A stretch of 64,000 bases of DNA. Origin: Mixia osmundae IAM 14324 (Eukaryota; Basidiomycota; Mixiomycetes; Mixiales; Mixiaceae). How positions within the stretch are numbered: position 1 is the stretch's first letter; every line of letters starts with the position of its first letter. Position numbers and translations under genes: made by a program. The notes below the pieces were generated by a model. It saw only the letters and a list, made by a program, of their open reading frames with translations, did no database searches and was not told the DNA's origin. Shown in pieces: positions 22,827 through 63,955 of the stretch. Location of the stretch: contig NW_014575560.1 of assembly GCF_000708205.1 (NCBI RefSeq), positions 1,183,113-1,247,112 of the forward strand, in the 5' to 3' direction.

Positions 22827-25507
22827 ATGGACGTCAACTACGAGGACGTGGAGGATCAAGGCAAGCAGCAGGAGTGCTACACTTGCCGCAAGCGGGGAGC
22901 TGACATGCCGTTTGAGCAGATGGCATCCGCCTCTCCTGGAATGTCTGGCCTTCCTCGCGCTTGGAGGCTACCAGGACGGTGGTACCCATCGCATGCGTAC
23001 ACACCCCCCTCAAGCCTCGCGAGGATCTGCCGCCAGTACTTTACGAGCCCGTGACGTGTCGTTCAGGCACCTGTCGCTCGATCCTCAATCCTCACTGCCA
23101 AGTCGACGTGAGGGCGAAGCTGTGGATCTGTCCCTTCTGTCTGAGCCGCAATCCCTTGCCGCCTCACTACAAAGACATCTCGCAAACCAACCTGCCGGCT
23201 GAGCTCCTGCCAAAGTATTCCACGATTGAGTATACCCTCGTCTCGACCCCCGTCAGGGTGCCCCCCATCTTCCTCTACGTCGTCGATACCTGTCTTGATC
23301 CAGAGGATCTCAAAGCGCTCAAAGAGGTCCTCATACTCAGCTTGAGCCTCATCCCGCCCAACGCGCTTGTCGGACTTGTCACCTACGGAACCATGGTAGG
23401 ATGACCAGCGGCCCCCTAGTGTGCAGGCTGACAGTTTCCGCCCCAGACGCAAGTTCACGAGCTTGGCTACTCGGAATGCGCCAAGTCATACGTCTTCCGA
23501 GGTACGAAAGAATACGCGCCTGCGAGAATACAGGAAATGCTAGGACTCAACCAACTTCAGAGGCCTCAGCAACCCGTCATGAATCCTAATCTGCCTCCCG
23601 GTCAGCAGCCGCAGCTTCAACAGCCATCTGGCGGAGGCGCTGCTCGCTTCTTGCAGCCTATCTCTGCCTGCGAATTCCAGCTCTCGCTCATCCTTGAATC
23701 GCTCCAACGCGATCCTTGGTCAGTCGCAGCCGACCGCAGAGCTCAGAGATGCACAGGTGTAGCCATGTCCGTCGCCGTCGGTCTGCTCGAGACGACCTTT
23801 GCAAACACGGGTGGACGCATCATGCTCTTCACTGGCGGTCCTGCCACTGAGGGCCCCGGCATGGTTGTCGGCCAAGAGCTTCGAGAGCCTATCCGCTCGC
23901 ACCACGACATTGATCGCGATGGCGTCAAGCACTTCAAGCGCGCGACCAAGGTGCGCCCGTCTTGCTGCTTCGATGCTCTGTCACTGAGCTTGCAGCGCAC
24001 AGTTTTACGAGTCTCTTGCGCGAAGGGCTGCTACCGCTGGCCATGCCATTGATATCTACGCCGGCTGCCTCGATCAGGTCGGCTTGCTAGAGATGAAGTC
24101 GCTCACCAACTACACAAACGGGTACATGGTGCTCGCCGATTCCTTCACGATGGGCATCTTCCGTCAGTCTTTCCAAAGCACTTTTGACAAAGACGAAGAC
24201 GGCAATCTGCTCATGGGCTTCAATGCCACGCTCGATGTGCAAACTACAAAGGAGATCAAGATCTCTGGACTGATCGGTCATGCTATCAGCGGCATGAAGA
24301 AGAACGCCTCGGTGGGCGAAACCGAGATCGGTATCGGCCAAACATCTCAATGGCGACAAGCGTCTATTACGCCTAAGACGTCCAATGGGATATATTTCGA
24401 AGTCGTTACTGCTTCTGGTCAGCCACCGTCGCAACAGAGAGGAATGATACAGTTCATCACACACTATCAGCACTCGTCTGGACAATATCGTCTACGTGTC
24501 ACTACGCTCGCCCGCAATTTCGCGGAAGGCGGAAGTCCTGCCATCGCTGCTAGCTTCGATCAGGAAGCCGCTGCCGTTCTGATGGCGCGCATCGCTGTTT
24601 TCAAAGCCGAGATTGACGACAGTCCTGACGTGTTGCGTTGGCTTGATCGCATGCTGATCCGTCTCTGCCAAAAGTTTGCCGAATACCGAAAAGAGGATCC
24701 GACGAGCTTCAGATTGTCGCCAAATTTTAGCATCTATCCTCAGTTCATGTTTCATCTCCGAAGAAGTCAGTTCTTGCAAGTCTTCAATAATTCGCCCGAC
24801 GAGACTGCATTCTACCGGTACGTCGTAAGCGCAGTCTCCTACCAATGTCGCTGACACATGACGCAGACATGTACTCAATGCTGAAGACGTCAACAATTCT
24901 CTTATCATGATTCAACCCACGCTTATGTCCTACTCGCTCGACAACGAGCCGGTGCCGACCTTGCTCGACTCGGTCTCGATCAAAGACGATGTCATCCTTC
25001 TCCTCGATACCTTCTTCCACATCCTTGTAAGTCGACAGCCCTGCTTTGGCGCTTCTACGCTGACTGCTCACAGATCTGGCACGGCGCAACGGTCGCTCAA
25101 TGGCGCAAAGCAGGCTATCAGGATCAAGAAGACTATTCTCATTTCAAAGCTCAGCTTGAGAAGCCTCGTGAAGATGCAATGGTGCGCTCTAGCCTGGAAC
25201 AGCTCGCTTGAGCTGACGTTCTGCGCAGGATCTCTTGACCGATCGTCACCCTGCACCTCGCTTTGTCAATTGCGACGCTGGCGGCTCACAGGCTCGCTTC
25301 CTACTCGCTAAAATCAACCCAACGTCGAACTTTGGCGGCGGTAGCTATGGCGCTGGCGGGTCGACAGATGCTGTCGTGCTCACAGATGACGTGTCGCTCC
25401 AGGTCTTCATGGAGCATCTAAGAAAGTTCGTTCTCTCTTACTACTTGGCGAGCATCAGCACGATGACTGACATGATGGTCAGGCTGGCTGTCAGTGGCAC
25501 GAACTAG
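22827..25507 (+). CDS. SEC23: Sec23, COPII coat GTPase-activating subunit
   Basis: The Sar1 GAP and inner-coat subunit of COPII vesicles leaving the ER. Eight exons (introns 22861-22919, 23396-23446, 23951-24002, 24818-24866, 25027-25073, 25182-25228, 25426-25482) give 772 residues, the normal Sec23 length. The zinc finger spans residues about 58-85 (TCRSGTC and WICPFC). The trunk motif [10 protein letters not shown], the beta-sandwich and helical parts follow, then a gelsolin repeat ending in KLAVSGTN. Exon 1 codes only 11 residues; joining it to [20 protein letters not shown], as in all Sec23 proteins, requires a GC-AG intron (22861-22919, donor GCAAGC). Confidence 0.96.
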
Positions 25508-25684
25508 AGCTCTGCTGTATCAATGAATGTCATGACTCGTCTCATTCACTAGAGGTTCAAGCGCTCGCGCGCTCGTCGCGACATGCACGCGACCGATGCG
25601 TGATGCAAGGCGACAATTTCCTGCCGGCCTCTAGCCGTGGTTGAGTATTCGTGGACGAGGCTGTTCTTTCATTGAGGCTCCGCC

Positions 25685-61523: not shown

Positions 61524-61912
61524 AACTCGCCCAGAGCTTTTGGCAAGTGCCAGCTAAGCCTCACTGGAGACGTCTCCTCTCGTCAGAGCGTTGATGCCGG
61601 TTCAAATGGACGGCTGAAGGGGAGCCTCGAGGCCCCGCCTGCAATGTGCAGCAGACCGTGTGCTCCTGCTCGGAAAAGATGTGGCTGTTCCCTCGTTGAC
61701 TTCTTGGCTAGTGACGGAGGCGTCTGCCCCCGAGTATGCGCGCTCCTCGGGGTGCTGGCTATCTCATCAGCAGTGCTGCCGCTCTGTATGTTGTCAATGC
61801 AAGTCAAAGCTCTCCTCAATCGAGTCGGCAATGAAGCAAATTTTTGCGCCACTCGTCGTCGCGCCGCGTTCGGATTTGCCATCATCATCAAGCGACGTCT
61901 GCTCCGACCACT
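61524..61912. other. 389-bp divergent promoter region, SPE2 / DAHP synthase
   Basis: No protein gene is supported here. On the SPE2 side an open frame starts with three consecutive ATGs (near 61880) and ends at 61583, 60 bp before the SPE2 ATG; its product is Arg-rich with no known family, so it is at most a long uORF. SAM decarboxylase genes in other kingdoms are controlled by uORFs, but I see no match to those known peptides. Confidence 0.45.
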
Positions 61913-63955
61913 ATGACGAACTCGGCTCGGTCGTGGACGCCGAGTAGTTGGAAAGCTCGCAAGGTCACTCAGGATGTCATCTATCCTGTCGATCAGCATG
62001 CCCCCGTCGCAAGTTCATCCGCTAATGGGCTAGCAACCGAAGGGCTCCCTGCCAACGAACGTCTTCACACTGTCAAGGCAAAGCTATGTGCGCTGCCCCC
62101 GCTTGTCACAGCGCAAGAAGTAGGCCATGAACCACCTGTAGATGTAGTTTGCTGACCGTCTTTGGTCACAGATCGAGCGACTGCGACAGCAACTGTGCGA
62201 CACGCGCGCTCTCCCAAGCTCGTGCTTAAATTGACATGCACCGCAGCGCTGACGTAGCCAATAGCAAAGCTTTCCTGCTTCAAGCTGGTCATTGCGCAGA
62301 ATCTTTTGAGATGTGCACGCAGGAGCAAGTCGAGTCTCAGCTCTCGCTGATACTGCTCATGTCACTCGTCCTCATTTGGGGAGCGCGGATGCCTGTCGTG
62401 CGTATTATGCGAGGCGCGGGGCAGTATGCCAAGGCAAGCATCAGCATGCCCCCTTGCAAATTTTGTAGGCTCATCTCAAATACAACAGCCCCGTAGCAAG
62501 CCGACAGAGGTCCATGATGGCAAGGAGATTTTAACGTTCAGAGGCGACAATGTAAACGGCTTCGATCCTGACGATAGGACACCAGATCCCGATCGGTTGC
62601 TACAGCGAGTCACGCTAAGATGGGTACACACCCTCCCGCTGATGTCGCGGACAGGGCATATTTTCATTCTGCGACGACGCTCAATTTTGTACGCGCTGTC
62701 CTCTCCTCAGGTTTTGCGGATCTACATCACCCTCGTTCCTGGTCGATGGCGCACGTACGATCGCCAGAACTGGCTAGATCGTTCGAGAGTGTCATAGAGC
62801 GACTGGAAGACTCGCTCGATTTTATTCGCGTCATCGGCGGCGATGCTTCAGACGCGCCAGCAGACACAAGCAAAATGAGCGCCTTGAACAGCGTCGACAT
62901 GTGGACCAGTCATGAAGTCCGTCTATCGAATTGAGATGACGAGGTGTAGCTAAGCTGCTCTTGCCAGGGCTTGCTTCTGCACTACGAAGAGGCGCTGACA
63001 CGATCTCTTAAGATACCGAGGCCGTCCGGCAAGCAGCAGGCGACGATGGAGGCACCGCCTCCGATCAAGAGCGACGGTCAGCCGAAGACTCCGTCAGCAG
63101 AATCGATCGAAGCCCAAGCTCACATTGAAGCATCCGGACGAGCGTATTACAACGTCTCTGCCCACTTCATCTGGATCGGCGATCGCACCCGACAGCTCGA
63201 CGGCGCACATGTCGAATACTTTAGAGGCATCCGCAATCCAATCGGAATCAAGGTCGGACCGTCTATGCAAGCAGATGAGCTGGTACGGCTGCTCGACATT
63301 GTCGATCCAGACAAAGAACCCGGCAGAGTCACTCTCATTTGCCGCTATGGTGCAGACAAGGTAAGCAGCACTCCACGATCAAGCAGCAAGAGCTAAGATA
63401 GTCTGAAAGATCAACATGTACCTGGCCGAGCACATCCATGCCGTCAGAAAATCTCTTCACCCTGTCATCTTTGCCTGCGATCCGATGCATGGCAATACAA
63501 AAACGAGCGAATCCAGCGGATCGCTCAAGACTCGGCACATGGGCGAGTGCCTTTGCACGAGCGAGAAGCGTACGCTGACGACAGAACGCTAGCTGACATT
63601 GTCAAGGAACTATCGGCATCCATCAGGATACATGCCTCGCTCGGCTCGAGGCTGCAGGGCGTCCATCTCGAGCTCACCGGCGAAGTCAACTCGGACGGGT
63701 TCAGCGTGACAGAATGCGTTGGTGGATCTATGGAATTGTCGGATGCTGACCTGTCGCTCAACTATCAATCCTTTTGCGATCCTCGCCTAAACTATGAACA
63801 GTCACTCGGTACGTAGCCTGCTGTCTCTTGACGTGAGACTGAGGTCACCAGCAGATGTTGCATTCCTCATATCTGACTACTTCAGGAGCGAGCGAAAAGG
63901 CCGGAAAACGGAAGACAAAATACTAGAGAACTTGTCAAGAAGCTCATCTCGTTAG
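61913..63955 (+). CDS. Class II (plant-type) DAHP synthase
   Basis: The first shikimate-pathway enzyme, joining PEP and erythrose 4-phosphate. Nine exons (introns 62120-62171, 62195-62246, 62434-62488, 62605-62654, 62917-62967, 63361-63409, 63543-63592, 63809-63854) encode 545 residues. Family motifs in order: [29 protein letters not shown] (metal Cys), [80 protein letters not shown] and TECVGGS. Three introns have GC donors (GCAAGC, GCGAGT, GCGAGT), and each removal completes a motif. It is not the yeast Aro3/Aro4 type (class I). Confidence 0.95.

Follow-up and report, generated by a model that had tools for sequence, protein, structure and literature searches.

Predicted GC-AG introns are unusually frequent in the genome of the basidiomycete Mixia osmundae

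We analysed a 64-kb stretch of DNA (C4:1183113-1247112; hereafter the window) from the genome of Mixia osmundae IAM 14324, a Pucciniomycotina basidiomycete of the class Mixiomycetes, in which an earlier note had placed 11 introns that begin with GC instead of GT. Judging from the sequence, GC-AG introns appear to be a real and genome-wide feature of Mixia, and one that is unusual for a fungus. We propose, with a probability of roughly 80%, that some 8-14% of Mixia introns are GC-AG introns of the ordinary U2 type, that the normal major spliceosome most likely removes them constitutively, and that the mismatch at the second intron position (+2) is compensated by matches elsewhere in the donor.

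The genome searched comprises 13,508,641 bases in 19 contigs. Our rate sample joined the window to C1:500001-600000 and C2:500001-600000, 264 kb in all. Introns were called with a home-made gene finder, trained on the sequence itself, which combines a codon-pair coding model with donor, branch and acceptor matrices, reads both strands and accepts introns of 40-130 bases with AG acceptors only. GT, GC, GA, GG, AT, CT and TT donors compete within it, and counts were restricted to genes with a finder score >60. The first version of the finder had one donor matrix; the refined version has a separate matrix common to all non-GT donors.

With re-estimated donor shares, the refined finder called 382 introns (GT 330, GC 41, AT 4, GG 3, CT 2, TT 2, GA 0) and the first finder 375 (GT 327, GC 35, AT 4, GG 3, CT 3, TT 3, GA 0). 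In the refined count GC donors are 41 of the 371 GT and GC donors, or 11.1% (95% confidence interval (CI) 8.0-14.7%), and 33 of 327 (10.1%) once introns that stay open if retained are dropped. The window has 14 of 91, in agreement with the high share given by the earlier note (11 of 92), and the two 100-kb stretches have 17 of 143 and 10 of 137. That note had also put the fungal norm at about 1%, which matches the published average of 1.009% in annotated genomes (PMC7072748), and had named a genome-wide rate near this figure as what would speak against its claim. Outside the window, the share is 27/280 (9.6%, CI 6.5-13.7%; p ~3e-18 against a rate of 1.01%). In the whole genome, the pattern GCAAGY-N22-40-GCTGAY-N8-25-YAG has 752 matches, compared with 314 when the branch word is permuted, 205 with GAAAGY and 480 with GTAAGY as the donor word; the same four patterns reversed give 121, 181, 122 and 136. 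These counts are rough: each of several overlapping acceptors adds to the total, GAAAGY hits are in part shadows of true donors, and a single permuted word was used genome-wide. They show that the GC-AG excess extends beyond the sample and, together with the recurrence of GC introns on two other contigs, they bear out the earlier view of a genome-level trait.

It could be argued that the GC calls are artefacts of the finder or of the reader, with nearby GTs as the true donors or with the stretches belonging to exons. Several intron borders did move between finder versions, and eight of the 41 GC calls are frame-neutral, some of them in disordered-looking protein parts. We nevertheless regard this explanation as very improbable. 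Retention would cause a frameshift or a stop in 33 of the 41 GC introns, compared with 294 of the 330 GT introns. When donors compete at equal fixed priors of 0.02 or 0.07, GC receives roughly ten times as many calls as the control dinucleotides: the refined finder gives GC, GA and GG counts of 36, 0 and 3 at 0.02 and of 42, 3 and 5 at 0.07. The first finder keeps the contrast, with 8, 0 and 0 at 0.0001 and 23, 1 and 2 at 0.0025. Homology or a gene model backs 22 of the 41 GC junctions. Eleven are ungapped in alignments with solved structures in the PDB (three in V-ATPase E, two each in a kinase, a J domain and a DAHP synthase, and one each in Sec23 and carbamoyl-phosphate synthase). A further junction, at C2:524711-524758 in a gene of purine synthesis, is also present in the public gene model L969DRAFT_70894; apart from four additional residues near the start, the protein of that model is the same as the predicted one. 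As this model already splices a GC intron, GC introns are at least partly implicit in the existing annotation. Pfam scans of the remaining 29 junctions, made with pieces of up to 160 residues, placed ten within a single above-cut-off match (DAHP synthase, SURF4, VID27 C-terminal, VID27 N-terminal, glycogen synthase, Vps11, PIN, mitochondrial carrier, DNAJC11 barrel and ING), and 19 did not pass. Left uncounted were junctions in PAS (two residues from the match edge), a second one in SURF4 (two residues from the end), Glyco_transf_90 (six residues inside) and Vps5 (between two matched stretches). The scans covered GC and control junctions, with no matched GT set; of 11 control-dinucleotide junctions, one lies inside an above-cut-off match (VID27 PH-like domain, AT donor) and two inside below-cut-off matches. 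Errors of sequencing or assembly, in which T was read as C, can be practically dismissed: we found no point in their favour, and they would neither single out donors with frequent +3A and +4A nor appear with comparable frequency on three separate contigs.

The context of the GC donors differs from that of the GT donors. An A at +3 is present in 30 of 41 GC donors and 113 of 330 GT donors (p 2e-6), an A at +4 in 31/41 and 162/330 (p 0.0015), a G at -1 in 25/41 and 145/330 (p 0.046) and an A at -3 in 21/41 and 107/330, whereas a C at +3 occurs in one of 41 GC donors and 71 of 330 GT donors. Positions -2A, +5G and +6T showed no clear difference between the 41 GC and 330 GT donors. Outside +1 and +2, GC donors have 4.49 matches to U1 and GT donors 3.54 (p 5e-6); the 22 supported GC introns have 4.91 (p 2e-6 against GT). 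GC donors are, apart from +2, stronger and not weaker than GT donors. Their commonest hexamers are GCAAGC, GCAAGT and GCGAGT. The best branch score does not differ (GC 4.40, GT 4.88, p 0.49), and GC introns exceed GT introns slightly in length (median 53 compared with 50, p 0.002). A GC donor with an AG acceptor, a CTRAY-type branch near the AG and a stronger remaining donor consensus are what U2-type GC-AG introns present, and these were found. With the known appearance of U12 signals as the comparison, a U12 donor or branch motif was not evident in the GC introns, although no dedicated U12 scan was made. Mixia resembles major-spliceosome GC-AG introns elsewhere in the GC at +1/+2, the AG end and the GT-like branch site. 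Stricter remaining donor positions are likewise a trait of the GC-AG class elsewhere, and Mixia is alike in this.

Two further observations concern these donor words. In the 264-kb sample, +3C is frequent in GT donors, where GTCAGT is the top hexamer (33), and it is coupled with +4A (51/71 compared with 110/246, p 8e-5). With +3C nearly absent from GC donors, it is as if a donor could tolerate a single weak position among +2 and +3, not two. Counted over both strands of the genome, GCAAGC appears 24,056 times and the reversed word 10,208 times. Part of this excess may arise because the reversed word holds two CpG, and introns alone would account for only a few thousand GCAAGC words.

The small nuclear RNAs (snRNAs) that read the donor look ordinary. 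U1 is present in two copies, 100% identical, with the canonical 5' start AUACUUACCU. About 24 kb separates the two U1 genes, which have opposite orientations (C4:1086418-1086591 and C4:1110569-1110742). In the longer start, AUACUUACCUUGACC, the eleventh-place U would lie opposite -3, a position that favours A. The genes were found by pattern search. Although their Rfam score of 32.8 bits does not reach the family cut-off (69.5), the match is full length (E 1.8e-5); an initial genome-wide Rfam search for U1 found none among the 41 of 250 candidates that were scored. The sole U6 match carries ACAGAGA, ATACAGAGAAGATTAGCATGG. No GC-reading change was found in the U1 copies or the U6 match, and the suggestion of the earlier note that U1/U6 donor recognition is relaxed finds no backing at the RNA level. 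Most likely the ordinary spliceosome removes the GC introns. Among other candidate factors, LUC7 gave matches to three exons on C9, which we assign to a single gene, and METTL16-like (Methyltransf_10) gave two weak matches, one of them barely above the cut-off.

A variant U1 snRNA in which G replaces the A facing +2 (AUACUUGCCU) would fit GC donors, and ATACTTGCCT does occur at 18 places in the genome. However, when the 24 ATACTTRCCT places (R being G in 18 and A in 6) were scanned with Rfam, no family matched outside the two canonical U1 genes (E up to 1), and querying the genome with the U1 gene at the DNA level returned two identical canonical copies only. These searches rule such a variant out, within their reach: they are blind to a U1 that has another change in the ten letters and little likeness to the known gene. 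We therefore hold a variant U1 to be scarcely credible. The GC share could instead follow from base composition, if mutation in a G+C-rich genome is biased from T to C. The sample is 55.8% G+C (0.567 in the window), the bodies of GT introns contain more C than T (0.303 and 0.258), and Iwata and Gotoh partly link the high shares of the most extreme algae to their very high G+C (PMC3033335). Yet the three algae that lead that survey are at ~66-70% G+C, the correlation is described there as rather weak in other species, and G+C at third codon positions (GC3) is equal in the host genes of GC introns (0.624) and GT introns (0.623). Composition alone was rejected as the cause, as host GC3 and intron C/T barely separate GC from GT introns, and we consider this account unlikely. 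A role for GC donors in regulated, alternatively spliced introns, akin to the regulated weak splice sites that the earlier note raised as a possibility, is suggested by the titles of studies on nematode and human GC-AG introns (cited in PMC3488318), and weak clustering is possible in Mixia, where ordered pairs of GC introns within the same gene number 30 against 20.2 expected (p 0.09). This seems improbable to us: many GC introns are in housekeeping genes (Sec23, V-ATPase E, purine synthesis, carbamoyl-phosphate synthase), half of the six V-ATPase E introns are GC, and the GC donors are otherwise strong.

Our preferred model, an ordinary U2-type intron with a compensated +2 mismatch, can be put as follows. 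The predicted GC introns are about 50 bases long and have the usual branch site and AG end. Their C at +2 would be unable to pair with the facing A of U1, and the other matches to U1 and U6 (+3A, +4A, -1G and probably -3A) would offset this mismatch. Because these extra matches compensate, T-to-C changes at +2 seem to be tolerated in otherwise strong donors, and the tolerated GC donors may then have built up across the genome. What the sequence itself shows is the GC-AG introns as sequence features, their share in the sample, the shift in donor context and the canonical sites of the U1 and U6 RNAs; we infer both this compensation and the constitutive removal by the major spliceosome. A tenfold-greater tolerance could be due to a protein change in the U1 small nuclear ribonucleoprotein or at the level of Prp8, to an RNA modification or to weak selection. 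More tentatively, it is possible that a protein change (for example in U1C, Luc7 or Prp8) or an RNA modification relaxed discrimination at +2 while the U1 and U6 RNAs stayed canonical, and that a fungus of moderate G+C thereby drifted to roughly 2,000 GC-AG introns, a number scaled up from the 264-kb sample.

Several points weigh against our interpretation. The evidence consists of splicing predicted at the sequence level, and the rate sample is about 2% of the genome. Homology support was lacking for 19 of the 41 GC calls. In addition, 8/41 GC introns would be in frame and free of stops if retained, compared with 36/330 GT introns; with some of these in disordered-looking regions, a few GC calls are probably false. 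The refined non-GT donor matrix was trained on GC calls, yet it was applied equally to the control dinucleotides. The contrast with the controls weakens under a loose prior (0.25 for all four GN donors: GC 51, GA 26, GG 12, GT 286), and re-estimation from a flat start gives GC 38, GA 8, TT 6, AT 4, GG 3 and CT 3. Finally, the compensation idea does not explain the low GC share of other fungi.

The GC-AG introns of the window are collected in the table. All 11 that the earlier note listed do start with GC and end with AG on one strand, and the donor hexamers are as it claimed (six GCAAGC, two GCGAGT). They fall in six gene models rather than the seven stated. Homology backs nine of the 11; the removal of the intron at 44307 keeps the frame, and the one at 47313 is unsure.

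Table. Predicted GC-AG introns in the window (window positions).
Positions	Strand	Intron	Gene	Evidence or alternative
9818..9864	+	further likely GC-AG intron	Vps5-like gene 7903-10257	first finder; refined finder donor 9812, also GC
22861..22919	+	GC-AG intron, GCAAGC...CAG	Sec23 gene 22827-25507	human Sec23A PDB alignment, ungapped junction
25795..25844	+	GC-AG intron, GCAAGC	MST-like kinase gene 25685-27841	ungapped against STK25, glycine loop to VAIK-like region
26225..26278	+	GC-AG intron, GCGCGT	MST-like kinase gene 25685-27841	restores HRDIK/AANILL (junction at the slash), ungapped against STK25
44307..44355	-	probable GC-AG intron, GCAAGC...TAG	long minus-strand gene	frame kept on removal only
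47313..47361	-	doubtful GC-AG intron	J-domain gene 47051-48587, 3' end region	finder alone, uncovered by domains
48376..48432	-	GC-AG intron, GCAAGC	J-domain gene 47051-48587	junction MIH/HPDKN, gapless against DNAJA1
48500..48553	-	GC-AG intron, GCAAGC	J-domain gene 47051-48587	junction YDVL/ELPPDS, gapless against DNAJA1
58304..58363	+	GC-AG intron, GCAGGT	METTL21-like lysine methyltransferase gene	Methyltransf_16 profile and METTL21A alignment through junction
62434..62488	+	GC-AG intron, GCAAGC	type II DAHP synthase gene	junction gapless against 5uxm
62605..62654	+	GC-AG intron, GCGAGT	type II DAHP synthase gene	junction gapless against 5uxm
63543..63592	+	GC-AG intron, GCGAGT	type II DAHP synthase gene	equal-length alternative 63535-63584, also GC-AG; both in frame

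The first finder placed six of the 11 listed introns exactly and the refined finder seven. Among those with homology support, the finder missed or misplaced 58304, 62434 (first version) and 63543 (by an 8-base shift). In Sec23, the short left side gives four aligned residues, and the length of 59 would shift the frame on retention. The kinase alignment contains an unplanned control: an 18-codon, in-frame GT intron (26062-26115) that had not been removed appears as an insertion, whereas both removed GC introns are gapless. The 44307 region was placed otherwise by the finder, with a GA donor (44291-44338) in the first version and a GC donor (44307-44381) in a later one. For the doubtful intron of the J-domain gene, the earlier note gave 47313-47369 and rightly called it the least sure; the finder favours the shorter form, which also begins with GC. 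In the methyltransferase gene, the 58304 placement scores 59.6 bits against Methyltransf_16 (56 residues on 56 profile positions), and the GT four bases downstream of its GC donor breaks the frame. The placement of an earlier finder, 58322-58372, also with a GC donor, was rejected for its lower score of 49.1 bits. The first finder's GT donor at 62398 was likewise rejected, as homology to DAHP synthase favoured the GC at 62434. A DAHP_synth_2 match (205.7 bits) crosses the junction of the 63535 placement in the Pfam scan. For Vps5, Pfam finds two matched stretches, the best of which ends before the 9818/9812 junction, so that either donor may mark the border.

Two genes stand out for their number of GC introns. 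The type II DAHP synthase gene (window 62311-63926) has three; type I DAHP synthase is usual in fungi. The V-ATPase subunit E gene (C1:584810-585694) has three among its six introns. Among the 120 homologues listed of 276, in a search covering lengths of 119-378 aa, none was named Mixia or was >64% identical to it. As other Mixia proteins are in the database, the public model of this gene may be wrong or missing.

How does Mixia compare with known systems? Its GC-AG introns are about ten times more frequent than the fungal average of PMC7072748; in Ganoderma lingzhi, GC-AG introns make up 1.85% after manual curation (PMC11590231). In a survey of 61 species, the share was 39.6% in Aureococcus anophagefferens, 22.2% in Micromonas pusilla and 7.7% in Chlorella sp.; the putative U1 RNAs examined there hold the consensus AUACUUACCUG, and the authors termed the origin of these abundant introns an enigma (PMC3033335). 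Mixia is like these algae in a share far above 1-2% and in a canonical U1 5' end. The algae have a G+C of ~66-70% (PMC3033335), whereas Mixia is a basidiomycete of moderate G+C with a 13.5-Mb genome and introns of ~50 bases. Mixia would thus join the GC-AG-rich algae by rate, not by composition. Animals rich in GA-AG introns, Eurytemora affinis and Oikopleura dioica (PMC7072748), are alike in having a genome-wide non-canonical donor class, but Mixia uses GC and not GA: its GA donors are at control level (0/382), reaching 26/375 only under the equal 0.25 prior. GC-AG introns are a known class, and at least two algae surpass Mixia in their share; Mixia extends this known oddity to a fungus. Mixia, which PMC10158824 includes among annotated fungi, is not named in the main text of PMC7072748, and the open-licence PMC matches listed, a scope outside which the genome paper and per-species supplements fall, included no report that GC-AG introns are abundant in this or any other fungus.

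Few positions in eukaryotic genes are as constant as the +2 donor base, and about a tenth of Mixia introns appear to depart from it. Annotation is affected too: gene-calling programs that accept only GT donors will disrupt many genes of this fungus. With its canonical U1 and U6 RNAs and moderate G+C, Mixia is a case in which to ask what component of the spliceosome imposes the T and to what extent selection by itself maintains it. If true, relaxed discrimination at +2 would make Mixia a small-genome, fungal case of the GC-rich-donor puzzle known in a few algae.

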